Of a stretch of 64,000 nt of DNA, positions 25,798-44,996 are shown piece after piece; positions within the stretch are counted from its first letter, which is position 1; every line of letters begins with the position of its first letter. The translations under genes and the position numbers were made by a program. The stretch comes from Pleurostoma richardsiae. Its lineage: Eukaryota; Ascomycota; Sordariomycetes; Calosphaeriales; Pleurostomataceae. Location of the stretch: assembly GCA_030052745.1 (NCBI GenBank), contig JANBVO010000025.1, forward strand, positions 372,001 through 436,000, given 5' to 3'. A model generated the notes under the pieces. That model worked only from the letters and a program-made list of their open reading frames with translations. It had not been told where the DNA came from and searched no databases.

Positions 25798-27166
25798 TCA
25801 AGCACCTGGCCTTGTGTAATCTAGCTCCCTTACTCTCTTCCACACTTCCCGGACAACACGCTCCTGAGTCTCTCGCCCGGTTTCGGTTTCAGATGGCCCT
25901 GCAGGTCTGGACCGGATGATCAGAAGCGTACTAATAGTTAGATGGTGGATACGCTTACCTTATGGCCAGGTACAGACGACTGCCCAGTCGGGCGTCCTCG
26001 ATCTTTGCCGTTGCTGGATCTTCCGGCGGATTTGCCGTGGTCACCAATCCACCTGCTTCCAACAGAATGGCGATGCCTGCGGCTACGTCCCTGTTGCGTT
26101 TCTTTGTGAGCCCCTGCCCCTGCCACACCACTGCAGCGCATACTCACCATTCCCAGCAGCCTCCTTCCCACCATATATCGAACGAGCCCATGGCCGTGTA
26201 CGCAAGGTCCAGCGTGGCACTAACAGTTCCATGTAATCAGCCTCACTTGCTCAGACCCTCCGGCTTGTTTCCTTACCTTCCCAGGCTCCGCACCCCGTGC
26301 ACCATCCCGCCCTTGCCCGACGGGTCCCCGATCTCCATCGCCATGTTCACGAAGCTCTCGACCTTCCGGCTCAGGTTCCCGCCCGGCGCGTGCCTCCGGT
26401 CCTTGCCCCACTCGCAGCTGAACAGGCACCCGAGCGGCGCCCGCGCCGGCATCGGCGGGACGGGGCTGCGCACCAGCGGCAGCCGCGTGGACTCGTTGAG
26501 CCAGGCGCCGCGCCCGGCGCACGAGCTGAAGAGCTGGCCGAGGAAGGGCGCGTAGATGACGCCGACGGCGGGGCGGCCGGCCACGACGAAGCCGATGGAG
26601 ACGCAGAACATGGGGAACAGGTGGGTGTAGTTGACGGTGCCGTCGAGAGGGTCGACGATCCAGGTCGGGGAGTCGTCGACGAGGTAGGTCCGGGACGAGC
26701 CCTTGGAGTATGTCTCTTCACCTAGGAATCTGGGAGAGGTAAGCTATGACTGCTCAAAGAGAAGAATGGCTGTTTCCATGTAGCGCAGAGTGTAGCGATG
26801 GCTAGAGAGGAGTCGAACCTACTTGTGGTCGGGATATTTCTGGGCAATTGAGGTCTTGATGAAAGCTTCGACGTCTGCCGACCGACAGCTGTCAGCAACT
26901 TCCCCCATCCAAGGCGAGCTTCTCCTACATGTTCAATTGGGGCAATTGAGATCTCTTATCGGGATTACCCCGCGATCATGCGTACCTTCGTCGGTCTTGG
27001 TCACGATATCGACTGCATTCTCCTTTTCTTCAGACCGCAGCTCCCCGCTCCCCTCATCGCCCATCCTGCCCCTCGCGCCGTCCATGAGCATCTTGCCGGC
27101 ATCTTTGCCGAGCTGGACGGCAAAGGCGTAGATTTCAGCCAGCTGCGCTTCCGATATCTCTGCCAT
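25798..27166 (-). CDS. qutG: QutG/QA-X inositol-monophosphatase-like protein of the quinate cluster
   Basis: Six exons are read on the minus strand: 26986-27166, 26823-26874, 26277-26729, 26148-26219, 25959-26090 and 25798-25906. The total is 999 nt (332 residues), close to the known QutG length. All five introns (52-111 nt) keep frame. Family motifs are the metal-binding DPLDGTVNYTH with an upstream GEETY, and the second signature WDVAAGIAILLEAGG, rebuilt across the fourth intron (EGGCWE/WDVAAG). The protein belongs to the Mg-dependent sugar-phosphatase fold. qutG/qa-x is a standing member of quinate clusters, but its exact reaction there is not settled. The gene is transcribed divergently from qutE through a 617-bp promoter containing a QUTA-type site. 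All metal-binding residues appear present. Confidence 0.93.
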
Positions 27167-27783
27167 AACGAAACGGGGGACAATTATCACTTCAAACAGA
27201 GCTTCTGGCAGATCTGGATGAGGAAGAGGGAGAATGGAAGCTCTCCCGTCCGGCAGGCAATCTCACAGCTCCCCGAAGCGCCGACCATGATGACAAGGCC
27301 GCAGAACCGCCGGAAACCGAGCGGCAGCTTTCCGCATCGGCGTGGAAGATGTCCACCCCCGACGGTTGTCGCCTGGAGACGCTATAAAGACCCGCTATAT
27401 CTAGATCTTACAGGCGGGGGCCTGCCTGACTACCCCGCGTATTATGGGCGTTTTGCCTCTGTATAAGGGGCGATCCCCACCGGGAAAGCACTTATCCAGG
27501 GATAACGACCTGTTCTGCTCGGATTTGCAATCGGACCTTGCCACGGCACAGTGACCGGAAGAAAGCCCGGGGCGCATCCCTCGGCATCAGATGCGCCATC
27601 TTCGGAGGTGCCGGAGGCGGAAGTTGGCATAGGCGAATGACCGGAGCAGTGTCAACAATGTAGTCTGCTCGTGAATGGCGTCACAGACACAATCCATAAG
27701 GCTTCTGAGAGTAACCAGCCCAGCCGTCTTCGTAACCTGTAAGCCTCTAATTGACCTATCTCTTCAACAATCACTACATCACC
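27167..27783. promoter_or_regulatory. Bidirectional promoter of qutG and qutE
   Basis: The 617-bp gap between divergent starts holds a near-perfect QUTA/QA-1F operator (27482-27497), a GGATAA half-site immediately beside it (27500-27505), and TATA-like sequences at 27383 (TATAAAG) and near 27463 (TATAAGG). No coding frame is supported. Confidence 0.6.
27482..27497. promoter_or_regulatory. QUTA/QA-1F activator binding site
   Basis: GGGAAAGCACTTATCC matches the published activator consensus GGRTAARYRYTTATCC at 15 of 16 positions (only position 4, T to A, differs). It lies between qutG and qutE, where the activator encoded at 34343-36670 would be expected to induce both genes. Confidence 0.75.
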
Positions 27784-28287
27784 ATGTCGCGCCGCATCCT
27801 CCTCATCAACGGGCCCAACCTGAACCTCCTCGGGACCCGTGAGCCTGCCATCTACGGCTCCACCACTCTCGCCGATGTGCTCTCCTCCGCCTCCGCCCAG
27901 GCCGCCCAGCTGGGCGTCGAGCTCGAGGTCTTCCAGTCTAACCACGAGGGCGCCATCGTCGACCGCATCCAGGAGGCAGGCGGGTTCGGGCACTTCATCA
28001 CCACTCCCAAGACCGGCGAGAAGAGGGAGAGGGTGGATGCGATCATCATCAACCCGGGCGCGTTCACGCACACGAGCGTGGCCTTGCGGGACGCGCTTCT
28101 GGGCGTCAGCGTGCCGTTCGTGGAGGTGCACGTCAGCAACCTCCATGCGAGGGAGCCGTGGCGGCACCACAGCTACTTCAGCGATAAGGCGGTCGCGGTG
28201 ATCGCCGGGCTGGGAGCGTTCGGATATACGGCGGCGATTGAGTTTGCGGCGAAGCATCTGAAGGTCAAGAAGGAGGAGCGGCTATGA
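27784..28287 (+). CDS. qutE: Catabolic type II 3-dehydroquinate dehydratase
   Basis: This single-exon gene encodes 167 residues. It converts 3-dehydroquinate to 3-dehydroshikimate, the second step of quinate catabolism. The type II signature is complete: [17 protein letters not shown] with the catalytic Tyr and flexible-loop Arg, [30 protein letters not shown], and [19 protein letters not shown] with the catalytic His and loop residues. It resembles QA-2/QutE and is unrelated to the type I domain of AROM. The ATG at 27784 is in a good context (ACCATGTCG) and places the NGPNLN motif at residue 9, as usual. Confidence 0.97.
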
Positions 28288-28490
28288 CGAAGGGGTCACG
28301 GCGGCGAAGGATTGTATGCATCACTTCACTAAAACGGGGGTACAAGTCATGCTCATGGTCATGAGAATCGCTTGCTATGTTCATACGCTGCTGTTCCCTT
28401 TCATAGGAGAGACGTAGCGATGTATATCCTCTGCAGAACAAAGAGATCCCAGTCCAACCAAGAAACGCCGTGCAAGGAGAGCTTCATGTC

Positions 28491-29558
28491 TTACAGGGAC
28501 GCCGATATCTTAACTGACGACGTCGGCGGTGCGACTTTGATGCCAACATCTCTAACTAGTCTCCTCCAAGAGTCGACACCTCGTCGAGCTAATTCCTCCG
28601 GTACCTCAGGGTCACTCTCCGACATCCGCCTGTTGAACAGCTCCAAGCTGGTCCAGCCCTCGTAGCCTAACCCGTTGAAGATCGCCCACGCGATCTCCCT
28701 GACGGGGAGGTATGCTCTTTCCTCGCCGTAGAACAATCTGCAGTTGCGCGACCAGCTCATCCGGCACGGCTGCGCCGCGTTGTAGTATTCATGGCCCTCA
28801 ATCAGGGGCTCCGCTAGCCTCTCTGCATCAACAACCTGCACGAGGAAGACCTTGTTCGGGTCGACCTCCGCTACCAGGCGAGCCATTGACTCAGACACAA
28901 CCTTCTCGGCGTCGGGATTTCTTCCGCTCGGGTGAGATGGGTCGGCGAAGATACGTCCCGCGATGTTGAACGTGTCTAGACACAGACCGAAGTTGGGCCT
29001 GTCGATGCGTTTAACAATCTCCCAACTCGTCTCCCACACGTCGACGTGTGTGCCCCAGCACAGGCTCTCATAGCAGAAGCGGATGGGCGGGTACGCTGCG
29101 GCACCAAAGTCGGCAGCCTCGCGCAGGTCTGCCGCGATCAAGTCCAGATCATCGGACAAGTGCTCGGCGGACAGGAAGTTGGACGGGACGAGTATCAGGT
29201 CGGTGCCCAGCTCATGACAGAGGGCGATCCAGAGCCGCAGCTCCGGGAGTCGTCTCGAATGTTCGGCACGGTCGAGAAGACCCTCATAGTTCATCAAGGG
29301 TTGCAGTGAGATGATATCTAGACCGCGGGCCCTGCACATGGAGCGGATTCTCTGGGCGGCGGACAGCTGGGCCTCAGGACTGGGATCCGCGAGTTGCGTG
29401 TCTCCCTGCAGCTTGAGGGCGAGGTCGGCGAGATCCTCGTGGAAGATCTCGACGCCACTGTAGCCGTACTTTTGCGCCATGTCGAGCTTGTGGGAGAGGG
29501 AGTGGCCGGCGAAGCAGCGTCCCAGGGACATGGAGCTGATGGCTAGCTTGGAAGGCAT
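28491..29558 (-). CDS. qutC: 3-dehydroshikimate dehydratase
   Basis: This single-exon gene encodes 355 residues. It dehydrates 3-dehydroshikimate to protocatechuate, the exit from the shared part of the pathway. The protein has the TIM-barrel of the AP-endonuclease-2/xylose-isomerase-like superfamily. Metal-ligand segments in order are GVEIFHEDLADLA, FCYESLCWGTHVD, GLCLDTFNIAGR, FLVQVVDAERL and TSLELFNRRM. The start at 29558 (MPSKLAISSMSLGRC) is preferred over an in-frame ATG 18 codons upstream, because the family begins right at this segment and the length then matches QA-4. It lies tail to tail with qutE (about 200 bp apart) and head to head with qutB. Confidence 0.95.
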   Translation of the reverse strand: MPSKLAISSMSLGRCFAGHSLSHKLDMAQKYGYSGVEIFHEDLADLALKLQGDTQLADPSPEAQLSAAQRIRSMCRARGLDIISLQPLMNYEGLLDRAEHSRRLPELRLWIALCHELGTDLILVPSNFLSAEHLSDDLDLIAADLREAADFGAAAYPPIRFCYESLCWGTHVDVWETSWEIVKRIDRPNFGLCLDTFNIAGRIFADPSHPSGRNPDAEKVVSESMARLVAEVDPNKVFLVQVVDAERLAEPLIEGHEYYNAAQPCRMSWSRNCRLFYGEERAYLPVREIAWAIFNGLGYEGWTSLELFNRRMSESDPEVPEELARRGVDSWRRLVRDVGIKVAPPTSSVKISASL

Positions 29559-30387
29559 CTTTGCTAGATTTGATGATAACTGATGAAGAACGACTCTAGC
29601 AGTATTCCTCACGGATAGGGCTGAGGTGAGATGTGTTGTACATAAGGAGAGGGCTCAGGGAGGCTACGGGTACAGCGTTCCAAGTAGATATGGGTCCGGA
29701 GGCTCCTTCTCTCAGATGAATCGAACGATGATGAGCGTCTACCTCCTGTCGCACCAGGGCAGCCTGCAACCGCAACTGGCTCAGTGAATTGCCAGCGTCC
29801 ACTCATGGTTCCAGAACGGCACTTCACTGCTCATTGGCTTCACTGCAGAAGGGTTTCCCGTAGAGATGCCGTGTGTAGCCGTTGTGGTAGTTGGGTATAT
29901 TTTCGTCCGGAGAGCAATAGCTGACGTATAGATGATGGCCTCGCCAGCCACTTACACGCCGGTATGTGCGGCGGGATAATGTTTACCAGAAGGTGGGCGT
30001 GGCACTTCACTGGATCCTCACCCCAGTTTCCGCTAATCCATATTCCCGTAGTGGCTGCGCCGACGGATCCGGTTCTCCGCAAACCCTGCAAAACACTTTT
30101 CCCGGGCCCTGTTCGCCCCCGAGCAAGTTGCGTCCGGCGTCCCGGCACGGTCGGTCGCTCTTCCGCGTGGTCTTGCAATGCCGAGACTCCTCCACATGTC
30201 TATCCAGCGTAACTTAGATATAGGGGCGTCTTTGTTGAGTTAGTTAAGGGGACCTTAAAGCGGATAGTCTCCGAAGGAAGCACTGCAAACATTACGGTGC
30301 ACAATAGTCGCTTTACAGTCTTTGATCCAGACCAGAAGTAAATCTGCGTATCCTTTCTTCCTCCAGCTTCAATTCGCATTCGTCACG
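29559..30387. promoter_or_regulatory. Divergent promoter region of qutC and qutB
   Basis: This gap of about 830 bp separates two divergently transcribed catabolic genes and should hold activator sites. I find no close match to GGRTAARYRYTTATCC. The best is GGGTATATTTTCGTCC near 29894 (12 of 16). No coding frame is supported. Confidence 0.4.
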
Positions 30388-31374
30388 ATGTTAGCCACAA
30401 TGAACATTGTCGACACGCTGGCCGACAGGCCGGTGGAAGCCACGGAGGCCGGCCACCCGCAAGTCTCCCACCTCGAGAAGCACAGCTACCTCTTCGGCCA
30501 GAAGCTCGCGGCCTCCATGTCTCCCTTCCTCCACGCAGTCGTCTACGCCAACCTGGGCCTGAACTGGGGCCAGGTCCGGCTAGACTCGACGGACATGGAC
30601 CTCTTCCTGCGGCTGATCCGCGACCCCGACTTCTACGGCGCCTCCGTCACCATGCCGCACAAGGTCTCCATCATCCGCCACCTCGACGACCTGACCCCCG
30701 AGTGCCGCGCCGTCGGCGCCTGCAACACCATCTTCCTGCGGACGGACCCCTCGACGGGCCGGCGGCTCCTGTGCGGGGCCAACACGGACGTCGTGGGCGT
30801 CAGGGACGCCTTTCTCGAAAACGTGGCTGACCCCTCGGCGCTGGCAGGCCGGCCAGGGCTGGTCATTGGGGGTGGCGGCGCGGCGAGGAGTGCCGTGTTC
30901 GCGCTGCACAGGTGGCTGGGCGCCACCGACATATACCTTGTGAACCGCGACGAGGACGAGGTCGCCGCCGTGATCGCCGAGTGCAAGTCGCGGGGCTTCG
31001 GCTCCGGCCTCATCCACGTCTCGTCCGTCGCTCAGGCCGAGGCACTGCCCGCGCCGGGCGCCATTGTCGCCTGCGTGCCGGACTTCCCTCCAAGGACAGC
31101 AAATGAGATCCTGGCGCGGCAGGTCACGGAGGCGTTTCTGGCGAAGGAGGATAAGGGCTCGATGCTGGAGATGTGCTACAACCCGTCGCCGTATACGGAA
31201 CTGGGGGCGCTGGCGGAGCAGCATGGGTGGCAGGTAATACTAGGCACGGAGGCGCTGATATACCAGGGGCTGGAGCAGGATCGCTACTGGACGGGCCGGG
31301 AGCTGGAGGAGCTGCCGGTTACTGAGGTGAAGGAGGCCATTGCGGCCCGGTTGGAGCAGGGATCGAAGCTATGA
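30388..31374 (+). CDS. qutB: Quinate/shikimate dehydrogenase, catabolic
   Basis: This single-exon gene encodes 328 residues. It oxidises quinate to 3-dehydroquinate (and shikimate to 3-dehydroshikimate) with NAD(P). Motifs of the shikimate-dehydrogenase fold are [17 protein letters not shown] (substrate Ser pair), [13 protein letters not shown] with the catalytic Lys, [20 protein letters not shown] with the substrate Asp, and the cofactor loop [17 protein letters not shown] followed by YLVNRDEDE. The acidic residue after the cofactor strand suggests NAD preference, as known for QutB/QA-3. The start at 30388 is chosen over an ATG 22 codons upstream because that extension is hydrophobic and not family-like. 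Another Met lies at residue 5. Confidence 0.95.
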
Positions 31375-31919
31375 GCAACTGTACATGATGATCTGTCTTA
31401 TAGATACCAGCGATATACATGAGATTTTGAAATACTTCTGAAGATGAGATTGGTCGTCAACACATGCTTGAGGATTTATATGATGCCCACTTGTATCTAA
31501 ATATTGACGAATACCCATGAACTCCGAAGTTCTTGCATATTATTAGTTCGCAACTAAATCTAACTGGTCCTTTGTAACGTTCGTTTCCCCGAGAACTAAG
31601 CGCGCAAATAAGACTCGTTGGGTTACGAATACAAGCAGGAACTGTTCCCGTCGTAGACGGTAGAACGGTTAAATCTACCTCAAAGTGAGAGCACATGGGC
31701 TCCCAAGGGTCTTAAATACTTCGAAAGCAAGCTTGCCCTTTGTTGCGTATTCCCAGTAATCCTACAGCGTTCACTTATCAAGTCGATAGAGTCTGGTAAA
31801 GACAATGATCTTCGCTAGAGAAACTATCCTATTCTTTCGATGGAAAGTCATATCCCTTGGGCTGGCCTTCATATTGACCGCGCTACAAAATTCCATCGCT
31901 GCAACCCATGGTAAACCAC
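31375..31919. other. Intergenic between convergent qutB and qutD
   Basis: Shared 3' flank, AT-rich, no gene seen. Confidence 0.4.
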
Positions 31920-33617
31920 TTAAACGCTGACCTTCCGCTCGAGCTCATTCACAACGGGTTTGTCATCATCCATGACCACACCCTCGACATTATGTCTGAA
32001 GTCCTCATCCTGGATCTTGAGATCCTCCATGACGGTCTTGTTCGCGTTCCAGACTGGCTTAACCTTGAACAAGCGGTCCATGGCCTCCAGCGGGATCGAC
32101 TTGGTCTCAGGGACCAAGAAGAAGACGAAGAAGATGGACAAAATCATCAGGCTTGCGAAGAAGAAGTATACACCGTAGCCCATCTTCAAGAACATCTGCG
32201 GCGTGAAGCGGCTGACGATGAAGTTCCAGAACCACTATTAAGAAGGGTATCAGCGACCGTACGTTTGCCTTAAAGGAAAGGATAGAGAGGACAGGAGGGT
32301 GAAAGGGTTACTCACGTTGTTCGCAGCGGCCGAAGCCTGGCCAAGTGACCGCGTGTTCTGGTCGAACATCTCGCTGTTGATGACCCACGGCGTGCCGTTC
32401 CACGATGGGGTGTACAGCGCCGTCCACAGGTAGAAGAAGAAGATAGCGGCGATGCCGCCGCTGGTCATCTTACCATCCTCAGCGGAGGCGCCCGCGATCT
32501 TGATGTATCCGCCAATGAACCACATGCACAGCGATCCACCGAAGGCGCCGATCATCAGCAGCTTGCGGCGGCCGACCTGGTCGATGAGGTACAGCAGCCA
32601 GACGAAGGTGATGACGGTCTTGACGACACCGAAGATACCCGTGGTCAAGAAGCCGGTGTTGGTACCCGTGATCCCGATGCTCTTGAACACGGTCGGGCTG
32701 TAGTAGTTGATGGCGTTGATGCCGGAGCCGTTCTGCCACAGGAACAGCATGCCGCCGAGGAAGAAGCGCCACTGCACCTTGCGCTGCTTGAGCGCCAGGA
32801 AAGGCTTCCAGAAGCCGGCGCCCACCTCGTGGCGGTACCGCTCCAAGTCCTCGTCGATGAAGCTGATCTCCTCGACCATGTAAATGTCCGTCGGTTCAAG
32901 CTTGCGCATCCAGCAGAGGACTTTGATCGCTTCGTCACGGCGGCCCTTAGAGAAGAGCCAGCGGGGCGACTCGGGGATCCAGATGGACCCAATGAGCAAC
33001 AGTCCACCCGGGATCAACTGAACGGCGAAGGGGATGAGCCACTGACTATGGGATGGCTCCATCGTCGTGTTGACTCCGTAGTTGATCCAGAAGCCGACAA
33101 GGCCGCCGATCTGCCATCCCAGCTCGTAGATGCCGACGAGTCTACCTCGGACAGCAGGAGGAGCCAGCTCGGAGATGTAGATCGGCACCATGTTGGATGC
33201 ACCTCCGACGCCAAGGCCGGCGAGGACACGTCCACCGTAGATCAGGCCGAGACCACGAGCGTGGTTCGCGCCCAGCATCAGGCCAGCGCCGAGTATGAAT
33301 ATCGTGACGAAGACCCATAGAGACTTGCGGCGACCGAGGAAGTAGCTGGTGACATAGGCGAAGAGGCTGCCAAAGAAAGCACCGGCCTGGTAGACGGAGA
33401 CGATGTTGGCCGAGATGAGCGCTTTTTTGCCTGCACTATAGTCGTCAAGGTTGAACTCATCCACGAACGACGGCAGAGCGAGCGTCGTGCCGATGAAGGC
33501 TGAGTCGTAGCCTATCATGCACGAGGCGAAGGAGGCGATGGCTGCGCAGGCATAGACGCGCCAGTTGTAGACCGCCTTCGGCGTCGGCCGATCCTCTTTG
33601 AGGGTTAACAATGTCAT
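31920..33617 (-). CDS. qutD: Quinate permease (sugar-porter MFS)
   Basis: Two exons, 32316-33617 and 31920-32234, joined over an 81-nt intron that rebuilds SLGQASAAANN/WFWNFIVSRFTP, give 538 residues, as in QA-Y/QutD. It imports quinate across the plasma membrane by proton symport. Sugar-porter signatures are GYDSAFIGTTLALPSF, FLGRRKSLW, GRVLAGLGVGGASNMVPIY, PPAVRGRLVG, IPESPRWL, QNGSGINAINYYSP and the closing VPETKSIPLEAMD. The tail is acidic with potential ubiquitin-target Lys. The start at 33617 (MTLLTLKEDRPTPKAVYNW) is family-like, and an upstream in-frame ATG is not. Its promoter region lies between it and qutA, which is transcribed in the same direction. Confidence 0.96.
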
Positions 33618-34342
33618 GTTGGAGGATTGACAACAAAGTTCAAGTGAGGGCAGAACTGAGACGGCGGTAACAGAGTTGAACCCTGGTCCCAACGTCCAAC
33701 GAAAGAGACTTGTCGAGAGATGAGGAACCAGTCGTTCGAAATGAGAGATGTGAGGATGTTCTCATATAAACCCTCAACAAGTGCCAGGATTCCCACGTTT
33801 TGGGATGGGTGGCCACAGAGCCCGGGGTAACGGGGGCTCTCCACAAGTTGCGACGCGATGGCTTGTCTAGGGGGTTCCCCGTTCAGCCGGCATTGGACAT
33901 TTCCAAGCGCCTTGTTCCCACCGGGAGAGGGTTTAGAGCAGTTAGGTCTTCCCGAGTCACAAGCCCTAAGCCAAGCGTGAATAATGAGTTGTCAGCAACT
34001 AGGGGTTGTCCTAGTCCGTTACCTTGCAAGTGGTCATTTGGCCAACCCCACACAACCCCAGATGCGGGGATGGCGTATTGAATGCGGGAAAGTCTTGTTG
34101 CCCCCCGTCTGTGGGGAAGAATACTTAGCCGGGGAACTTGAGTTGACGCGTTCAATCCGCGGAGATGCTTAGGTTTCGGGCTACAGAGCAAAGCGGATCT
34201 TCCATGGAACAACGGCCTGAAAGTTGTTGCGTTTGAGATGGAAGAGATGTTTCCCGAGTTCATTGCTGAGGTAAATGGGATTTCCGGGAGGTATGCTAGT
34301 CTAACGGATGAACAGATGCCCGCGATATCTTGAATTCCATCA
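33618..34342. other. Intergenic: qutD promoter and qutA 3' flank
   Basis: No gene is seen. A TTTATATG element on the minus strand near 33766 is a possible qutD TATA box about 150 bp upstream of the start. No good activator-site match was found by eye. Confidence 0.35.
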
Positions 34343-36670
34343 TCATACACCGCCAAACTCCCGCGCTAGAATCTCAGGTATATCACAGCCAGGCGCGAAC
34401 CCCAAGTTCGCCATGAACTGCGGCTCCATGTCCGCATCCACTCTGTCAGTGTAGTCTATGGACGCGAGGTCATCAAGAAGAGCATCGTAGTCCAACGACC
34501 CTCCACTGAAGCTTTGCCTCACAGGGCGTTGGAAGCCCAATGGTGGGCCTGGGCCACTGTGCATGCTGCTAGTTGGAGTCCCCAAGATACTCATTCCGCT
34601 GGGGACCGATGGTGCTGTGTCGGGACTGGTCGGCTTTGGCTGGGTGTAGTTCCCTACTATAAATGAAGTGTCCGCCACGGGGTAATGATGTTGGTGAGAA
34701 GTCAGAGGCCGAACCCCGAATGCCGCATGACTCCCGTAGCTGTCGGGCAGTGCAGGACTCGAGAATGCGAAGGACGGATTTGTAGGACCGTAAAGAATAG
34801 GAGCGGTTGGTGTCTGCGATGCCGCGGACCGAGGATGGCCTGTCCTCTTATCGTCGGCAAGTGTCCACACAGCAGAGAGGCTGTCGTTGAGCGCACGCCA
34901 TCTATCTTTATCATGCTGGTGCAGCCTGTCAAAACTCGGATGCTCCATTAACATGGCTAGACAAGGGGCTAAGAATGATGGAGCACCGCACGCCCCAAAG
35001 TGCGCGACAAACTGCTCTAATGATTCGATGAGTAGGTGGTAGGGGGCGTCGTCCATGGTGCAAAGGAGGGCGTTCGTCCAAAGGAAGATGAACTGAAGAA
35101 TGTACGCCGGCGGGACAGTCGCAGGGATGGAGTCCTCAGATGTCATGAAGGAGCTGAATGGTAATCCAGGCCTGACTACTTGATGCAATCGGACAACCAG
35201 TCGCCGAGGATCCTCTGGTCGCATGGCATCTGCAGACGCTCTGCTCGTCGTCATATTTCTCCGCAGGAACTTGAACACGTCGTGTAGTTGATTGAAGGAA
35301 GTGAGAGAATACGCGGGGGTTCGACTGGACGCCGCGGAAACATACTCATCCTGCCCGAACCCTTCACATGGTGTCCATGGCTGCCACTCGTCCAGCTCGT
35401 CCTCAGGGACACTCGAGTTATACGCATCGAGAAGTGCGAGACCATTACTAATGGATGATCTTCGTAGTGTGGAAATCATCGTCTCAAGGACCGAGCAACC
35501 GATTAAGACCGCATGGATCTTCCGTTGTTGTCGATCGTGTCCATGCGGTCGGTTAAGGCCACCGTCCGAGTCGAGAGCGATGTGCTTAGCAAGGCCAAGC
35601 AGTATCCATGCAGCGGTGTTGTTTCTCCTGCCGATATTGACCAGCGTGAGCAGAAGCAGAGCCCTGGCATGTTGGAACTGGAATGGGCCATCCTCGGACG
35701 GTATCAACCGCCTTGCAACGTCGTAGATCTCGTGTGGTAGCCGCGGAGAATAGTGAACCTCCTGTGGCGAGTTCTCGGAGAAGACCCGCGAGGATACACT
35801 CGGCTTTGAACTCGCAGAGTCCTGAAACGATGCAAGAGCCAGGACGCTCCACAGTTCGGCATGTGCAGCTGATGACAAGCTAGAAGGCGCGATGCCTTCG
35901 GTCCCGTACAAGTATACCGTCTTCAGCAGGTCCTGCTTCTCGAGTATGGGGAACCAGCAATGGGTATAGGAGAAGTAGATGTCCAGCAACCTCCAATGGT
36001 TAGGAGGAAGTTTCAACGGCATAGTCTCTCGAGCAGGGTAGTCTTCGTAGGTCAGTTGGGATGCGTTCGTAGTGCCGGACGGCGGCGCTGGCGACGCAGT
36101 ATCGCCAGCAGTGGGCCGGCCGTCACTGTTCCCATCGAGGCACAGTTCTGTCTCTGTGTCGTCACCGGACGAGGACTTTTCCGCCCGTTGGCGAGATGCC
36201 TCGCCGCTGTCAGTGGAGAGAATGCGATCGACTTCTTTGTGTACCCTGCTCTTCCTCCATCGCTTGTGCAATCGATTTGCCTTGTCTGACTCCTTCCCTC
36301 CGACTAGGAGGCGCCGCCCCTGCCCGCCGTCGTGGGTTATGAAGTTCTCAAGGGCCTTCTCGCAGCCGGGAACATGCTCGAAAAGCCAGGCGAGCGTCAG
36401 TTCCAATGTCCGGATGTAACCCGTCTGGACGCCTCTCTTCTTGGGATTGGCTTCGTAGGTACAGGGGCGGTTCTGTGATACGCAGGGAAAACACAACGGT
36501 TGTATGCCGTCACACTTCTCCCGTGCGGCTCGGCATTGGTCGCACGCCCTCGATACGCGCTGTCGCTTGGCTGGAGACACTGCGCGGTCGGCCGTGGAGT
36601 CGGCCGTCGCGACAGATGCACGGCGTTCGCCTTTGTTGCCAGCCTCCGCGGTCTTTCGCTTCGAAGGCAT
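34343..36670 (-). CDS. qutA: Zn2Cys6 activator of quinate utilisation
   Basis: This uninterrupted frame of 775 residues encodes the pathway-specific activator. The zinc cluster has Cys43, 46, 53, 60, 63 and 70 (spacing C-x2-C-x6-C-x6-C-x2-C-x6-C) within RVSRACDQCRAAREKCDG. It is followed by the linker PKKRGVQTGYIRTLELTLAW, which is nearly diagnostic for QutA/QA-1F. The middle (about 215-640) is the fungal-specific transcription-factor domain (LLDIYFSYTHCWFPILEK, ARALLLLTLVNIGRRNNTAAW). The C-terminal 130 residues are Ser/Pro-rich and end in an acidic segment, a likely activation region. It is expected to bind the operator at 27482-27497 and to be held inactive by QutR, whose gene is divergently transcribed 570 bp away. 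Confidence 0.95.
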   Translation of the reverse strand: MPSKRKTAEAGNKGERRASVATADSTADRAVSPAKRQRVSRACDQCRAAREKCDGIQPLCFPCVSQNRPCTYEANPKKRGVQTGYIRTLELTLAWLFEHVPGCEKALENFITHDGGQGRRLLVGGKESDKANRLHKRWRKSRVHKEVDRILSTDSGEASRQRAEKSSSGDDTETELCLDGNSDGRPTAGDTASPAPPSGTTNASQLTYEDYPARETMPLKLPPNHWRLLDIYFSYTHCWFPILEKQDLLKTVYLYGTEGIAPSSLSSAAHAELWSVLALASFQDSASSKPSVSSRVFSENSPQEVHYSPRLPHEIYDVARRLIPSEDGPFQFQHARALLLLTLVNIGRRNNTAAWILLGLAKHIALDSDGGLNRPHGHDRQQRKIHAVLIGCSVLETMISTLRRSSISNGLALLDAYNSSVPEDELDEWQPWTPCEGFGQDEYVSAASSRTPAYSLTSFNQLHDVFKFLRRNMTTSRASADAMRPEDPRRLVVRLHQVVRPGLPFSSFMTSEDSIPATVPPAYILQFIFLWTNALLCTMDDAPYHLLIESLEQFVAHFGACGAPSFLAPCLAMLMEHPSFDRLHQHDKDRWRALNDSLSAVWTLADDKRTGHPRSAASQTPTAPILYGPTNPSFAFSSPALPDSYGSHAAFGVRPLTSHQHHYPVADTSFIVGNYTQPKPTSPDTAPSVPSGMSILGTPTSSMHSGPGPPLGFQRPVRQSFSGGSLDYDALLDDLASIDYTDRVDADMEPQFMANLGFAPGCDIPEILAREFGGV

Positions 36671-37240
36671 TGCTCGTCTCTCCCACTTTGTATTATGGCA
36701 AAGCGATGGAAACGCATTTCAGAGAGGGATAATCTGGAAGGGGACGGTGACCACCGCTGGGGAGGATGAGGGGGCGTATCCGGTGCCGGGTAAGCTTGCT
36801 TCGTCACTTTCTCGTAACAAAGGCCAGCTTTGAGGTCTAGTTCTCGCTATGGTCCAACCGTCGTCGCAAGATTAATAACCCCACGATGCGGATTCCCCGC
36901 AGAGAGGTTGGGAAGCAAGGCCTACAGAGAATCTGGGGTAGCTGAAGCACCGGAAAACTGGGGGGACGTGAGTGCGGGGGTGGTAATGAGACAGGGGCGG
37001 ATAAACACTCTCCCCCCTTGCAGATCTCGGCTCTTGGTAGCGGGACGCCATTATCTCACCAGGAATGCTTAGCGATCTGGTCGGGCGGAGACTCACCATC
37101 ACCATCGCACGTGTCACGGAATTGACAATTCGGTGTGTGCGCTGAGTCTTTGCCGTCGATTTCAATATTGTCAATCGGCGTCTTGTCATCCAAGGTGTTG
37201 CCAACTACTGCAAGTGAAAACGTCGTCCCCTTTGGTCGCG
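36671..37240. promoter_or_regulatory. Divergent promoter of the qutA activator and qutR repressor genes
   Basis: This 570-bp shared region contains three CreA-type carbon-repression motifs (SYGGRG) on the plus strand at 36933-36938 (CTGGGG), 36959-36964 (CTGGGG) and 36974-36979 (GCGGGG). Clustering of such sites would fit glucose repression of the regulators, but single motifs are common by chance. No close QUTA site is seen. Confidence 0.4.
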
Positions 37241-40026
37241 ATGGCGTCCGTTGTGGCGGGAGTAAAGCGCCCCTTCTCCACGATGGCCGTCGGCTGGGAG
37301 GGGCGCAGCGAACAGGAGCCTAACCGAGGCAGCCCGTTCCCCAAAGAATACCAGCATAGACCGCGGGAATCGAATAGGCGATCTCTGGCATCGGGAGAGG
37401 TGTCCTCCTCAAGTCAAGGTTAGTAGAATACCATCTACAGTTGCGAGGGACCGTCACTCGGGCGAAGCTAGCTAACCAACGTATGCTTTGGGCAGCATCT
37501 CGGTCTACTGCGAGCTCTCCAGCTCCGTCTACCGAGCTTTCAGTGGTTAGGCTGTTTGAACACGATGCTTCGGTCATCCTCACCGGCATCAGGGGCGCGG
37601 GCAAGTCCACGCTCGCCGTCATTGCATCCACAGCGATGAAGAGGAGGGTAGTCGATGCTGAGAAAGTATTCCAAGAAGTCACTGGCCTGTCCAGTGCCTT
37701 GTACAAGAAAACGCATGGTACGGTCGAGTACAGTGGACGGCAGTCAGAGATCTTGCGGGATATCCTCCACCGTCACCGAAAAGGGGCCGTCATTGTCTGC
37801 TCGTGGATGGAGAGAAACATCCAGTCCCTGCTCGTGGAATTCAGTGCCACGAACCCGATCATCTACATTGCTCGAGATGCCAAAGCCATTCAGAAGCATC
37901 TCAGGGTCTGGGATGACGCCAGGATCCAAGATTTACTCGATGCCAGTGGGTCGGTGTTCCGAAAATGCACACACTTCGAGTTCTTCAATGTCTCCGAAGG
38001 CTCCTCGAAGTCGGACGGGTCTGACACCTCCAGCGGGAAAGAAGAACTAGACCAGAGAGCTCCGGCACCGTACCTAACACTGAAGAGAGCAGAGAGGCAT
38101 TTCCTCAAGTTTCTGTCCCTGATCCTGCCAAAGGGCACTATACCCTTCATTGAGTCTGCTTTTCCGCTGGCGTCGCTGCCCACGGAACGACGACACTTCA
38201 CCTATGCGATGTCAATTCGCCTGTCAACGCTTCGCACAAGGGACATTGATATCGAAGAGGTGGAAACCGGTGCCGACGCCATTGAAGTTGTAGTAGACGA
38301 CCTGATCATTGACGAAGGGAGGCAGAACAGTGAACGGTTCAATGAACATTTTACCCCGCAGGTTGCGAGCGAGACCAGTCGCATCATCAGCCATGTTCGG
38401 AGGAGCACCGTTGTCCCCATATTCTACCACGTCATATTTCCTGAGTCTGCTCTGACCAGCGATTCCTGGGCGTCGCTCTACCTGGCTTATGTGCTCCATG
38501 GCCTAAGACTTGCGCCCGAGTACGTCTCCGTGGATTTACGACTGGGAGACACCGATATCGCGCGTCTTCGGATGACAAAGGGTCGGTCCAAGCTAGTTGG
38601 CAATGTCAGTCTGACGACGACATCGCCACCCCCGTGGAATGATGCCATCTGGCTGTCCTACTACCGCAGGGCACGGAGCTTAGGCTGTGATCTTGTACGG
38701 TTCACTCGCAAAGCGGATCACTTCACGGACAACTTCGAAGTATCGCATCTGCACAGAGCTATCGAGACACTCGGCGAGCCTCGCATACCATTAATTGCAT
38801 ATAACACCGGCCGGAACGGAAGAAACTCGGCTTGCTTCAACCAGGTATTAACGTCTGTCCTTCCAGAGGATCTTGACGGCTCGCCGCTCGAAGATTCCGA
38901 CTCCGAAAGCCAGTATCCGCGGCCAGCCCTGACTGCCGTTGAGGCTACCCGCGCCCTCTACTCCTCCTTTGTGTATGAGCCGATGAAGATGTACGTCTTC
39001 GGAGCCAACGTCAGCTACAGCTTGTCTCCAGCGATGCACAACGCAGCTCTCGCCGCCTGTGGCATACCCCATCACTACAAACCTCACTCGACGACCTCCA
39101 TCCGGGGTATCCAGGAACTAGTCAGCGACCCGCAGTTTGCGGGCGCTTCGGTCGGTCTTCCGTTCAAGATCGAGGTGATCACCCTTACCCACTCCCTGAG
39201 CTCCCACGCCAAGGCTATTGGGGCAGTCAACACCCTGATACCAGTACGGCGACTGAACCCGGACGGGAGCGTCCCAGACGACTTTCTGCTGTTCCAGTGC
39301 CGCAACCAGTCTGGTCCCGTCAAAGCCCTGTACGGGGAGAACACCGACTGGATCGGCATCCGGGCGTGTCTCCGGCGGGGGCTCTCGCCAGCCAACGCCG
39401 TGAGGTCCACCAGCTGCGGCCTCATCGTCGGCGCCGGCGGCATGGCGCGGGCAGCCGTCTACGCGATGCTCCAGCTGGGCGTGAAGAACATCGTCATCTT
39501 CAACCGCACCGTCCACAACGCCGAGAAGCTCGTCGCGCACTTCACGCGGCTCCTCTCGCGGAACGACCTGCCGCTCATGAGCGCCGAGCCGGGGGTCGAG
39601 ACGCAGTTCCACGTCATCAGGTCTCGGCAGGATCCCTGGCCGGAGGCATTCCGGCTGCCCACCTTGATCGTCTCCTGTATACCCACGCACAGCATCGGGG
39701 ACAGCCCCGCGCCGGAGTTCACGCTCCCGCCGGCATGGCTCGGCAGCCCGACCGGCGGGGTTCTCGTCGAGCTCGCGTACAAGACGCTAAACACGCCGCT
39801 GCTGGAGCAGAGCCGGCGGGAGGCGCATCGCGGCTGGGTGACGATGGATGGGCTCGATCTCCTGCCGGAACAGGGGTTTGCGCAGTTCGAGTTGTTCACG
39901 GGGCGGCGTGCGCCACGGCGCCTGATGAGGCGCGAGGTGTTCAGGGCTTATCCAGATGATCAGGGGCGGTCTAATCTCCCCCAATTGCAGCCGCGGCTGG
40001 ATAACATTGTGGAACAGGAGCCTTGA
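37241..40026 (+). CDS. qutR: Quinate pathway repressor, AROM-derived
   Basis: Two exons, 37241-37418 and 37496-40026 (77-nt intron with GCTAACC branch point), give 902 residues. The protein copies the three C-terminal domains of pentafunctional AROM. The first is a shikimate-kinase-like domain with Walker [15 protein letters not shown] (about 88-100). The second is a type I dehydroquinase-like domain (about 255-480). The third is a shikimate-dehydrogenase-like domain (about 515-890; [58 protein letters not shown]). In QutR/QA-1S these domains sense intermediates and block the activator instead of catalysing. The start at 37241 is inferred from the splice. The second exon also opens in frame upstream of the acceptor, which would give a false N-terminus. 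The first exon is a disordered Ser/Arg-rich tail. Confidence 0.93.
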
Positions 40027-41093
40027 TCTGTCATGTTGGGAGCGGCTGGTGAATGATTGCATTTGGTTGGCTCTCTCTTTATGAAGGCCTGGTTGCATAC
40101 GGAGGCTCTCATTCTGACGTTAATTAGTGCTTCAACGACAAATACGAGCGAGCTTTTGGAGTTAAATCATCATATATACTTCTCATATACTGGAAAGCCG
40201 ATGAAATCATATGGATCTTAGCTGAGAAAAGACGAAGAGTTCAGAAAATGGTGTGGAATCAAGCCCTCCGTAAAGTGATGGTTTACAAGTCGTTAAGAAG
40301 TTACGCAAAAGAGAAACCGTACCCTGCCGTGATGCCGAGGCCATTGCCACCAGCGAGAGGTATCTTCTAGAGCGGCATAGCATGCTAGACCTCGAATGGC
40401 ACTTTTGGCCGGTGGTGTTTCCAATCAAGTTATAGTACTATAACAAAATTCGGTGGCGTGATCTTTAACCGCGAGACCGCTCATCATGGTCTTCACAAAC
40501 CTTAGACTCGGCAACTGAACTTACTTCACCTTGCCTCTGCCAATAGTAGCACAAAGTGATAGTGAATAGTATCACATTGCGCAAACTATTACTTAGATAC
40601 GCAACCCAAGTTCTGCCCCCCAGCGCCGGTGAGCCCTCAATTCCCAGTTGCAAACGTAAATCGGCTATTTGCCATTTAGCTATGATAGCCATTACTGCGT
40701 CTTCCTCAAGAACCACCACGGTCATTTCGCAACTGGGAAGACGTGTTACATTCCAAGTTGTTACCATATGTCCAGATTTCAGTTCCTATGCCACGTACGA
40801 AAGGCACCTCACAATAGAGCTTGGTCAGGAACTACTGTGAATCTATTTCTCTGCCGTGTTGATACGCCATCATGTTCTACCAAGGTATAGTTGCCTAAGC
40901 GAGTCGCTTAATGAGAATGAGGTTGAATCATCTGCCCGCAACTCCCACTACACCACAACCCCTTTTGACCCTTTCTAGTACTCCCTAAGCCGTGTACATG
41001 AAGACTACGCTGAAGATCAGGCCATCTTTCTTGTCCTTCCTTCTTCATTGTTCTCTAATCTTGGTCTCTCCCAATCTTGTGATGCCGAGCTCT
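40027..41093. other. Intergenic between convergent qutR and the A-T-R-R gene
   Basis: AT-rich 3' flanks of both genes, no coding frame supported. Confidence 0.4.
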
Positions 41094-44000
41094 TCAAATT
41101 GGTTCATCCCTCGGCTCGATAAGCACCTCGTTAACGGCCACATACCCCGGCTGCCGCAGCGCATACACGATCGCCCCCGCCACGTCCTCCGGGTCCAGCA
41201 CCTTGGCGCCCGACGGCTCGCCGTACTTCTTGACCGCCTCCGTGTCCGTCGACATGCCCAGCAGCTCCGTGGCCGTGTTGCCCGGCTGCACCGACGTGAC
41301 CCGCAGGCCCGACCCGGCCGTCTCGAGCCGCAGCGTCTGCAGCGCCGCCTCGACGAAGAACTTGCTCGCCGAGTACACGCCCAGCCCCGGGAACACCTTG
41401 CGCCCGGCGTCGGACGAGATGGCCACGATGTGCCCCGCGCCGCGGGCCAGCATCCCCGGCACCGTCGAGGACAGGCAGTGCAGCAGCCCCTTGCAGTTGA
41501 CGTCGACGGTGCGCTCCCAGTCGTCGGTCCGCACGTTGGCCATCAGGGTGTAGTACATGACTCCAGCGCACGCGACGAGGATGTCGACGGGGCCGAGCGC
41601 CTCGGTGGCAGCGTGCATGAGCGACTCGACCTGGGCCCGGTCCGTGACGTCGGTCTTGTGGACAATGACTTTGACTCCGTGCGTGGCGAGCTTGCCCTTG
41701 AGTGACTCTAGGGCCTCCGTGCGGCGAGCGGCGAGCGCGACGTGTGTCCCCTCTCGGGCTAGAGCTGCAGCGACTGCAGCGCCTATGCCGGACGAGGCGC
41801 CGGTCACGACGGCCACACGGCCAGTTAGCGGCCCGGCCTTCTTCGGCGCCGTGGCTGTGCTCGGCTCTTCCCGGCGCGGCGGCTTCGAGAGCCAGCCACG
41901 AGCGTAGAAGTGGCGAGTGTACGTCCGGAGCAGCTTCATGTCAGTCTCAGGGCGCTGTAGTCCATATAGACTCAGCACGGGCTTCGTCGCAGCGTCGTTG
42001 AGAACAATCACGGATGTCAGGAATTCCGGGCTTGGCATACCGCCGCGCAGGATGTCCACCGTAAATATGTCCTGGCCAGCTTTCGCGGAGCCTCTCTTCT
42101 CATTCCACAAGGCGACCCAGTCGTCCCATTTCAGAGGCTCGGTCGGGTAGCCGAGCTTAGCCAAGTCGTTGAAGAGGGATGGAGCAGCCACGGGTTTGGC
42201 ATCGCCGAGATGGAAGACGAGCTGGCCCGGGCTGGTGTGACCGGCAAGAGCCACTATGGCTTTGCTGACGAAGTCGACGGCAGTCATCTCCATGAACCAG
42301 TCGGGAACATCTGGCGCATATCCGAGATGGAGTGACTCGACAATCAGCGCTGTGAGGAGATCGTACGTATTCGTAGAGCCGGATGTCGTTGAGCCGCTCA
42401 GGGTGCCAGGACGATATATCCTGACCGGCAAACCACGACGGTTGGCTTCCTGGACCAGCTGCTCAGCAACCCACTTCGTCTGGCCGTACCCATCCATAAG
42501 TTTCGTTGGTACGTCGTCAATGCCGATCATCGCGTCTTCCGGCCAGCCCTCCTTCGAGGGCGGCAACACGCCGTTGGTGGAGATATGATGGACAGTTGCG
42601 CCGCTTCGGCACGCGAGACGCAGAACCTCCCTCGTGCCGCCCACATTAGGGTTCCGCAGCGCTGCGTAAGGATAGACAAGGTTGACTGTGGCACCAGCGT
42701 GAATGATGACCTGCACATGAGCAGCGAGCTCCTCGAATGCATCAGGGGAAAGGCCGAGTCGTTTCCGCGCAAGGTTTCCGGGGAGGACTTCGACGCGGTC
42801 GAGTATCGAGTCGTCCCACAGACCAACATCGACGAGATTCTTTCGAAGTCTCGCCATCCCTGCCGGACGATCATTTTCTGACGGCTCAGCGAAGCGAACA
42901 AGGCAGATAATGTTAGCCGCCGTCCTTTCTAATATATCACGGAGCAGGAAGGCCCCCAAAAAGCCAGTCACACCGGTGAGAAGGACGTTGCTAGCGTCCG
43001 CGAGAGAGCAGATCGTTGCGTTCGGCGGCGGTCGGATGTCATCGGCGAGTTCAGAATCTGCACGCAGGACGGCAGGCAGGTCAGCTTGCACTGCTGCGGT
43101 ATGGCCGTCGCGAGCGTCGCGGACAACCTCCAAATGACCTTCAAGGGTAGGGGCTCCAGCAAGGCGGGTTACAGGCACGGGGAACCCGAACGTCGCGGAC
43201 AACCGACGAGCCAGGTCCGCGAGAGCCAAGGAGTGCCCACCCAAGTCAAAGAAGTCGTGCTTCTGCGTCACGGCGCTCAGTGGCACGTTGAGACAGGCGG
43301 CCCACAGCTTTGCAATGGCCTCCACCGTGATTTGTATGTTCCGGTCGTCCTTCTTTCCGTTCACGGCAGGTGGCGCTGGTGCCTTCACGGTTGGGGGCGG
43401 CAGCCGCTTGAGGTCGGCTTTGCCGGAAACCTCATGTGTTGGCAGCTCTTCCATTTCCACCCAGAGCGCCGGAATCATGTAATGCGCGAGATGGTCCGTT
43501 AGCACCCGTCGTGCGACCGGGCTGTAGCCGGACTCGTCGATCAAGGGGATTGGACGATCTCCAGGCTCCTTATCACGCACTATATATGCAACGAGTTGCC
43601 GCTCCAGACCGTCGCCATGCGCTATTACCGCACAGTGTCTCACGGCCAGGTTCTTGACGATCGCGTTCTCAACAGCACCAGGCTGGACACTGTAGCCTCG
43701 GACCTTGATCATGGCCCCAACCCGCCCAGTGATCTCTAAGAGGCCGGATGGAAGAAGTCTTGCGAGGTCTCCTGTTCGGTACATCCTGGCTCCTGAAGTG
43801 CTGTCGAAGGGATCGGGTAAGAATGATTTTGCCGTGGTCTCTGGCAAGTTGAGGTAGCCGACGGCCAAGAGACCACCGCCCACGAACAGCTCTCCGCTGA
43901 CGCCGTCGGGGACTTTGTTTCCCTGCTCGTTGAGGATATATGTGTGCTTGGAGTCCATTGGTGGTCCGACAGGGCAGACAGTGCACCCTTCCTCAACCTC

Positions 44001-44996
44001 AAGCATCTCTTTGATGTCACCACAGGCAATCTCGTGGGTCTCGCTGGCACTATAGCAGTTAAGCAGTCGCACCTGCGGAAGCGCCTTGAGCGCTCGACGG
44101 GCTAAGTCGATGGTCACAACCTCGCCGTTGAGCCACAGGGTTCGAAGCTCAGGAAGCCGCGCGCCAAGGTTGGAGTGCCGAGAGAGGATAGTCGCCAAGA
44201 GGGTAGGAGTCATGAGCGTTTCGGTTATGTGCCGCGCGGCGAGAAGCTCGACGAGAGCAACAGGGTCGTAGCTCGAGTCGTCCGGGACAGCGTACACCGT
44301 CGCGCCCCGAATCAGCGGCCGCAGGATCTCCCAGATGAAGAAGACATTGCATGCCACCCTGTCGCCGTGGCGGAGATCACTGAGAGCAAACCTCAGGTCG
44401 TAAGACCGCACAGGGGCGCTGTGAGGGTTCGCGATGCCCTTGGGGCGGCCAGTGGTACCCGAGGAATACGAGACGAAGGCCAGCCGCTCGAGATCGTCAT
44501 CGGCAGGCAGAGGCTTCTTCGCAGCCCCGTTCGGCTGCGCGGATCCGTTGGCAGCATCCTCCGGCTTGTCGACAACAATGAGTGGAACCTTTGCCTTAAC
44601 CTGGCCGGCATGTGCCGCCTGGGTGAGGACAACGACGGGCCTCGCATCCTCAATGACATCGGCGAGCAGTCCAGGAGGGTATGCGAGTTCGAGGACGAGG
44701 AAGGCGCCGCCGGCCCGGAGTGCAGCGAGGCACGCGATCACATACGCGGCGCTGCGGCTCATGAGCACGCCGACGAGGTCATTGCGGCCGACGCCAAACC
44801 GGCGGAGGCGGTCAGCAAGGGCGCCGGTTTCGCGGTCGAGCTCGGCGTAGGTCCACTTCCCCGTCTCATCCTCCAGGGCGACGGCATCGGGAGTGGCCCG
44901 GACTTGGCCGGCGAATAGCGCCGACAAGTCCTTGGAGGTGTCGATAACAGGCATCTTCCGAGATGTGGTACTCCGCTTGTTGAGCAGGTGCGGCAT
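41094..44996 (-). CDS. ATRR: NRPS-like A-T-R-R carboxylate reductase, glycine betaine reductase type
   Basis: One uninterrupted frame encodes about 1,300 residues. The adenylation domain (about 20-530) has VSYSSGTTGRPKGIANPHS, NCYSASETHE, YRTGDLARLLPSG and a closing SGKADLKRL with the catalytic Lys. A carrier domain follows (DFFDLGGHSLALADL, about 575-590, Ser for phosphopantetheine). Next is a thioester-reductase domain (R1; NVLLTGVTGFLGAFLLRDIL at about 670, YGQTK at about 835). The last is a classical SDR domain (R2; VAVVTGASSGIGAA at about 1060, YSASK at about 1205). This exact order is that of fungal ATRR, which reduces glycine betaine through the aldehyde to choline. The region where amino-acid-activating domains have an Asp reads ACNVFFIWEI, consistent with a substrate lacking a free amine. 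The start is uncertain: ATGs lie at 45068, 44996 and 44954. It sits tail to tail with qutR. Confidence 0.88.
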   Translation of the reverse strand: MPHLLNKRSTTSRKMPVIDTSKDLSALFAGQVRATPDAVALEDETGKWTYAELDRETGALADRLRRFGVGRNDLVGVLMSRSAAYVIACLAALRAGGAFLVLELAYPPGLLADVIEDARPVVVLTQAAHAGQVKAKVPLIVVDKPEDAANGSAQPNGAAKKPLPADDDLERLAFVSYSSGTTGRPKGIANPHSAPVRSYDLRFALSDLRHGDRVACNVFFIWEILRPLIRGATVYAVPDDSSYDPVALVELLAARHITETLMTPTLLATILSRHSNLGARLPELRTLWLNGEVVTIDLARRALKALPQVRLLNCYSASETHEIACGDIKEMLEVEEGCTVCPVGPPMDSKHTYILNEQGNKVPDGVSGELFVGGGLLAVGYLNLPETTAKSFLPDPFDSTSGARMYRTGDLARLLPSGLLEITGRVGAMIKVRGYSVQPGAVENAIVKNLAVRHCAVIAHGDGLERQLVAYIVRDKEPGDRPIPLIDESGYSPVARRVLTDHLAHYMIPALWVEMEELPTHEVSGKADLKRLPPPTVKAPAPPAVNGKKDDRNIQITVEAIAKLWAACLNVPLSAVTQKHDFFDLGGHSLALADLARRLSATFGFPVPVTRLAGAPTLEGHLEVVRDARDGHTAAVQADLPAVLRADSELADDIRPPPNATICSLADASNVLLTGVTGFLGAFLLRDILERTAANIICLVRFAEPSENDRPAGMARLRKNLVDVGLWDDSILDRVEVLPGNLARKRLGLSPDAFEELAAHVQVIIHAGATVNLVYPYAALRNPNVGGTREVLRLACRSGATVHHISTNGVLPPSKEGWPEDAMIGIDDVPTKLMDGYGQTKWVAEQLVQEANRRGLPVRIYRPGTLSGSTTSGSTNTYDLLTALIVESLHLGYAPDVPDWFMEMTAVDFVSKAIVALAGHTSPGQLVFHLGDAKPVAAPSLFNDLAKLGYPTEPLKWDDWVALWNEKRGSAKAGQDIFTVDILRGGMPSPEFLTSVIVLNDAATKPVLSLYGLQRPETDMKLLRTYTRHFYARGWLSKPPRREEPSTATAPKKAGPLTGRVAVVTGASSGIGAAVAAALAREGTHVALAARRTEALESLKGKLATHGVKVIVHKTDVTDRAQVESLMHAATEALGPVDILVACAGVMYYTLMANVRTDDWERTVDVNCKGLLHCLSSTVPGMLARGAGHIVAISSDAGRKVFPGLGVYSASKFFVEAALQTLRLETAGSGLRVTSVQPGNTATELLGMSTDTEAVKKYGEPSGAKVLDPEDVAGAIVYALRQPGYVAVNEVLIEPRDEPI

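Follow-up and report, generated by a model that had tools for sequence, protein, structure and literature searches.

We ask here why, in the ascomycete Pleurostoma richardsiae, a gene for a four-domain enzyme of the ATRR type (adenylation, A; thiolation, T; and two reductase domains, R1 and R2) lies directly beside the genes of quinate catabolism (the qa/qut cluster). The stretch analyzed, hereafter called the window, comprises 64,000 nucleotides of contig JANBVO010000025.1 (positions 372,001 to 436,000) and belongs to a genome of 39.4 Mb, the homologs of whose proteins are fungal. An earlier note on this DNA had offered three explanations for the adjacency, namely chance, co-regulation, or a changed substrate, and chance turns out to be the best fit. 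With a probability of about 0.93, we take the window ATRR to be this ascomycete's single, ordinary glycine betaine reductase, whose position next to an ordinary and complete qa/qut cluster is accidental, with neither regulation nor chemistry in common.

The ATRR gene and its substrate pocket

The enzyme is encoded in a minus-strand stop-to-stop frame of 1,326 codons (41094-45074), along which Pfam places AMP-binding, PP-binding, NAD_binding_4, and adh_short in this order, thus giving A-T-R1-R2 in one chain. The database entry of the window's own protein counts 1,286 amino acids and starts at Met41 (window position 44954); position 44996, given as the gene end in the earlier note, corresponds to Met27, which lies further upstream. 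Both R1 and R2 retain their Tyr-x3-Lys, and the T domain its phosphopantetheine serine.

41094..44954, minus strand: ATRR (NPS10-type), A-T-R1-R2, predicted glycine betaine reductase, 1,286 amino acids (from domains, database entry, and genome-wide match)
43851..44909, minus strand: A domain (AMP-binding), Pfam stretch; the pocket Lys lies past it
43140..43319, minus strand: T domain, motif FFDLGGHSL, phosphopantetheine Ser615 (Pfam and motif)
42255..42980, minus strand: R1 thioester-reductase domain, Tyr863-x3-Lys867 (Pfam and motif)
41244..41819, minus strand: R2 short-chain reductase domain, Tyr1234-x3-Lys1238 (Pfam and motif)

Ten pocket positions of the A domain, which we take to be correctly located by the GrsA motifs, read V F W L W N C E I K (residues 244, 245, 248, 287, 314, 316, 340, 348, 349, and 552 of P0001). 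They were compared in an alignment of 222 full-length sequences including the window's, from which P0002, a duplicate of the window protein, had been removed beforehand. All ten residues recur in 162 of the 221 other homologs, and V, F, W, L, and the acidic E are invariant in 222/222. Position 7 is C, V, or L and position 9 is I, V, T, A, or S, while positions 5, 6, and 10 are each different or gapped in one sequence. The likeness to the Aspergillus betaine reductase that the earlier note had proposed holds: 32 of the 34 named Aspergillus homologs are pocket-identical to the window protein, a set that does not contain the A. nidulans ATRR itself, so that the pocket comparison with betaine-type ATRR stands for these homologs and not for that protein. 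Of the two that deviate, one has I replaced by V and the other is gapped at the tenth position.

In the excerpt of PMC7496086, the D235 loop is described as replaced in ATRR-A by a shorter hydrophobic one, with an acidic residue where the cationic group would sit. The window pocket fits this description, as it lacks the amino-acid Asp, is lined by hydrophobic and aromatic residues, and contains an acidic residue; its alignment with the solved LgrA is loose at the D235 loop. Part of another report (PMC11050029) presents fungal ATRR as a glycine betaine reductase in which certain pocket sites differ between fungi, and also describes a nematode relative, different at five sites, that relieved betaine inhibition in yeast.

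Over the same alignment, the window protein is 66.6-75.0% identical to the other 221 homologs over aligned residues (median 70.6). Among the best 120 of 1,476 matches listed, the closest named homologs come from Sordariomycetes, are A-T-R-R proteins of full length, and reach 72-74% identity; one listed homolog is called glycine betaine reductase ATRR at its source (Exophiala, P0049) and six are called nonribosomal peptide synthetase 10. The founding paper on the fungal ATRR glycine betaine reductase is reportedly Hai et al. 2019. Among the best 35 of 178 candidates scored in the genome, ATRR is the sole full-length match; the second best reaches 32% identity over residues 61-889, and none other spans more than two thirds of ATRR, and on these candidates we reject the idea of a second copy released for another function.

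A maximum-likelihood tree of 31 sequences (21 ascomycete, with no basidiomycete or nematode) places the window ATRR in a fully supported ascomycete clade. Its branch of 0.21, against 0.04-0.32 for the tips there, is unremarkable and shows no acceleration. The grouping with Pseudomassariella and Pyricularia is loose, given its support of 91.6/63. The viral contigs searched gave no match to ATRR.

Set beside the fungal ATRR glycine betaine reductases, the window protein has the same domain order, pocket, catalytic motifs, and length, at about 70% identity to its homologs; no difference was seen in the protein, and the window departs from them in its genomic neighbor only. The same A-T-R-dehydrogenase architecture is described for the NPS10/NRPS10 subfamily in the parts of PMC2823734 at hand, again with no difference seen. 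Judging from the sequence, the reaction would run as in these relatives. Glycine betaine would be activated by the A domain as its adenylate and passed to the T domain; betaine aldehyde would then leave through the action of R1 and become choline through that of R2, with ATP and NADPH consumed along the way. The name glycine betaine reductase is also used for a different enzyme found in anaerobes.

The quinate cluster and its activator sites

The earlier note had called the quinate cluster complete, and Pfam bears this out with seven qa/qut gene types to the left of ATRR, qutR being the nearest. By family-level assignment, the three putative enzymes are found together with a predicted permease, activator, repressor, and qutG.

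25798..27166, minus strand: qutG/qa-x, inositol-monophosphatase-like, introns present, ends read by eye (PF00459 on a 150-residue exon piece)
27784..28287, plus strand: qutE/qa-2, class II 3-dehydroquinase (PF01220)
28491..29558, minus strand: qutC/qa-4, 3-dehydroshikimate dehydratase type, xylose-isomerase-like TIM barrel (PF01261)
30388..31374, plus strand: qutB/qa-3, quinate/shikimate dehydrogenase type, shikimate dehydrogenase N domain (PF08501)
31920..33617, minus strand: qutD/qa-y permease (sugar transporter), one 81-base intron at 32235-32315 (PF00083 on the first exon)
34343..36670, minus strand: qutA/qa-1F type Zn2Cys6 activator with fungal transcription factor domain (PF00172 and PF04082)
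37241..40026, plus strand: qutR/qa-1S type repressor, a single frame with domains of shikimate kinase, DHquinase I, and shikimate dehydrogenase (PF01202, PF01487, PF08501)

The 5' end of qutR is uncertain, being either ATG 37241 (with an unconvincing intron) or the in-frame ATG 37483. Its 3' end (40026) and that of ATRR (41094) face each other across 1,067 bases without any frame of at least 150 amino acids wholly inside, which confirms the direct tail-to-tail contact noticed earlier. Since the two genes converge, they have no common promoter, and a promoter shared by qutR and ATRR, once considered, is impossible in this order.

The window cluster has in common with the qa cluster of N. crassa and the qut cluster of A. 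nidulans the seven qa gene types and QA-1F-type palindromes in the promoter regions (qutH was not sought); it differs from them by the ATRR gene beside qutR. The qa cluster was described in N. crassa, and the portions of PMC12610400 that recount this name no ATRR-type gene in the quinate cluster gene lists of N. crassa, A. nidulans, and A. niger, nor in the table of quinate-regulated candidates.

For the regulatory sites, we scanned ten regions with the palindromic form of the QF consensus GGRTAARYRYTTATCC, as printed in the excerpt of PMC12941744, and compared each with 300 dinucleotide shuffles. Putative QutA-type sites with 1-3 mismatches lie in 4/4 qut promoter regions.

27482..27497, no strand: putative QutA/QA-1F-type site, qutG/qutE promoter, 1 mismatch (0/300 shuffles as good)
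36999..37014, no strand: putative QutA/QA-1F-type site, qutA/qutR promoter, 2 mismatches (1/300)
29973..29988, no strand: possible QutA site, qutC/qutB promoter, 3 mismatches (12/300)
34115..34130, no strand: possible QutA site, qutD 5' region, 3 mismatches (12/300)

Around ATRR, the best candidate in the 2,269 bases 5' of the gene has 4 mismatches (238/300 shuffles as good) and that in the qutR/ATRR gap has 5 (297/300), and the ATRR frame has no site better than expected (300/300). Neither the left side of qutG (297/300) nor the qutE/qutC tails (142/300) or the qutB/qutD tails (300/300) show a site above expectation. With the looser pattern GGRWAANNNNTTWYCC at one mismatch, the window contains five matches against 0.99 expected, a number that 1/100 shuffles reached; four of these lie in qut promoter regions and one at 62595, with none near ATRR.

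Some further features of the genome and the window are recorded here for completeness. Elsewhere in the genome, at G000:C45:182738-183736, there is a second 3-dehydroshikimate-dehydratase-like gene (52% identity with qutC); an intradiol dioxygenase match at 188196-188582 is about 4.5 kb away, and the two possibly form a second protocatechuate route. When compared with solved structures, the best intradiol dioxygenase match in the genome resembles catechol/hydroxyquinol dioxygenases, not protocatechuate 3,4-dioxygenase; lactonase-family matches are also present. On its 5' side, ATRR has frames of a family 2 glycosyltransferase (cellulose-synthase-like, 47227-49263) as neighbor. About 34 kb from ATRR, at 3758-7067, C2 domains and a phosphatidylserine decarboxylase domain are encoded in frames that point to phospholipid synthesis and are probably unrelated, and a fragment of a NACHT-type NTPase (NPHP3_N, NACHT) is found at 21103-21714. 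A bacterial-code search found no tRNA genes in the window.

Bacterial relatives and their gene neighborhoods

A scan of bacterial and archaeal genomes returned 12 loci, 11 of which are related to ATRR over a large part of its length (L038 is a short-chain reductase only). Nine loci have a complete pocket region and carry the pocket (V/I)FWLWN(V/L/T)(E/D)(I/V)K, whereas L034 and L037 are incomplete there. A fused A-T-R-R is encoded in Mangrovihabitans (66% identity) and in an actinobacterial metagenome-assembled genome (MAG; 57%), thus in just 2 of the 11 loci; the remaining relatives are A-T-R1 enzymes or part of one, with a separate R2 gene or none. In 5/10 genomes (L032 not among them), an R2-like match of 61-68% identity directly follows A-T-R1. 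The bacterial A-T-R1 enzymes (from Rubrobacter relatives, Mangrovihabitans, and Desulfobacterota) share the pocket type with the window ATRR, but unlike it they mostly have R2 as a separate gene or lack it, and some stand beside transporter genes.

In the class of Rubrobacter marinus, 24 of the 39 genomes match at E values up to 1e-150. The class of one Desulfobacteraceae MAG has 4/291 matching genomes at 1e-120 (best two candidates per genome), two of them inside much longer frames, and the order of Mangrovihabitans a single one in 150 at 1e-150 (best four candidates per genome), Mangrovihabitans itself, so the fused form is rare there. In the tree, the fused actinobacterial proteins (L027, L036) branch off next to the whole set of 21 ascomycete sequences, as their closest outgroups. 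By its sequence relationships, the ATRR gene has likely crossed between kingdoms, in either direction; descent of the fungal gene from actinobacteria was dropped in favor of this wording because of the single fused form in 150 genomes.

The gene neighborhoods were searched at 30 loci (the 24 Rubrobacter-class matches and six others) by tblastn at 1e-10, with the betaine/carnitine/choline transporter (BCCT) of L027, ProV and ProX of L032, and four qut proteins (qutB, qutC, qutD, and qutE) as queries. Many of the stretches end at contig ends, so the counts that follow are lower bounds. A BCCT gene adjoins the A-T-R enzyme in at least 8/30 loci. In seven Rubrobacter-class loci, several of them closely related (L056, L059, L061, L062, L065, L066, L074), it lies directly upstream on the same strand, one match being partial (155 amino acids at a contig end), and in Mangrovihabitans (L027) it stands tail to tail with A-T-R-R. 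Pfam assigned BCCT to each of the six transporter proteins submitted to it, all but those of L059 and L074. In one further locus of the 30, which is the source of the ProV and ProX queries, a Desulfobacterota A-T-R gene is divergent from genes of a ProV-, ProW-, and ProX-type glycine betaine importer (L032:5946-12973), for which NCBIfam returns ProV, ProX, and, below its cut-off, ProW. In L064, a ProV match of 26% belongs to a generic ABC ATPase and is left out of this count. The stretches around the other 21/30 loci contain neither a BCCT nor a ProVWX-type transporter. An R2-like gene of at least 60% identity follows the enzyme in at least 10 of the 24 Rubrobacter-class loci, and homologs of qutB, qutC, qutD, or qutE were found near the A-T-R enzymes in 0/30. 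Two actinobacterial loci have a metal transporter of the Nramp family near the enzyme (L028:2508-3830 and L037:7192-8694).

These neighborhoods support betaine as the substrate. It is a tentative idea, to which we give slightly less than even odds, that some bacteria, above all the Rubrobacter relatives, possess a betaine import-and-reduction operon (BCCT, A-T-R1, and often a separate R2) that would reduce glycine betaine towards choline, with the fungal ATRR sharing descent with the fused actinobacterial form. The usual bacterial direction is the opposite one.

Weighing the explanations

If betaine is still the substrate, ATRR may have come under quinate regulon control in this lineage, and two nutrients of plant origin would then be used together. 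ATRR does adjoin a complete cluster, and the excerpt of PMC12610400 reports that an A. niger quinate gene outside the cluster is still induced, so the textbook cluster layout is not needed. The two genes are convergent, however, and no activator-like site lies 5' of ATRR or in the gap, as opposed to all four qut promoter regions; moreover, N. crassa is listed without NPS10 yet has the qa cluster (PMC2823734, in part). These observations contradict the co-regulation put forward in the earlier note, and we regard it as quite improbable, albeit less so than the idea that the A domain has switched to protocatechuate, quinate, or shikimate, with both reductase domains then taking the new substrate to an alcohol in a new quinate branch. 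For such a switch speaks the adjacency only, together with two reductase domains that look intact. Against it stand the pocket shared with nearly all Aspergillus homologs, the absence of a long branch in the tree, and the single copy, through which the betaine function would have been lost. The acidic pocket residue would also suit a cation, which the proposed acids are not. We give this last option hardly any credence.

The literature on the family bears on accidental adjacency from two sides. Table 1 of PMC2823734, as far as the excerpt goes, counts one NPS10 in A. nidulans, A. fumigatus, C. heterostrophus, F. graminearum, M. oryzae, and T. reesei, and none in N. crassa, P. anserina, B. cinerea, and C. 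immitis. A conserved A-T-R-R gene occurs in each of 14 Hypoxylaceae/Xylaria genomes and was assigned to primary metabolism (PMC8403587, in part), and NRPS10 of F. fujikuroi is expressed in 1/4 nitrogen/pH conditions, quinate not being among these (PMC3694855, in part). Among the papers listed in a search by title or abstract, none links quinate clusters to NRPS-like (nonribosomal peptide synthetase-like) or betaine genes; the nearest hit is, judging by its title, a bacterial genome report. Several points weigh against the ordinary-enzyme explanation. The NPS10 family is discontinuously distributed, as the same excerpt of PMC2823734 states, so ATRR is not strictly housekeeping. The stricter GGRTAANNNNTTAYCC, with no mismatch, is absent from the window and found in five places in the genome, and the consensus at up to 3 mismatches occurs 7 times window-wide against 3.97 expected (reached in 11/100 shuffles), which is not above chance; the regulatory argument is thus purely positional. 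Two of the four qut promoter sites are modest only, and a distal site or an indirect response of ATRR to quinate could still exist. Shared regulation nonetheless appears to be absent, and an ordinary glycine betaine reductase beside an ordinary quinate cluster is the explanation that we retain.

A false lead is thereby removed, as the locus can be explained without a new quinate branch. The bacterial neighborhoods additionally provide an independent reason to regard the ATRR pocket as made for betaine or for a closely related quaternary amine. If the operon reading of these neighborhoods is true, bacteria too would form choline by reduction.

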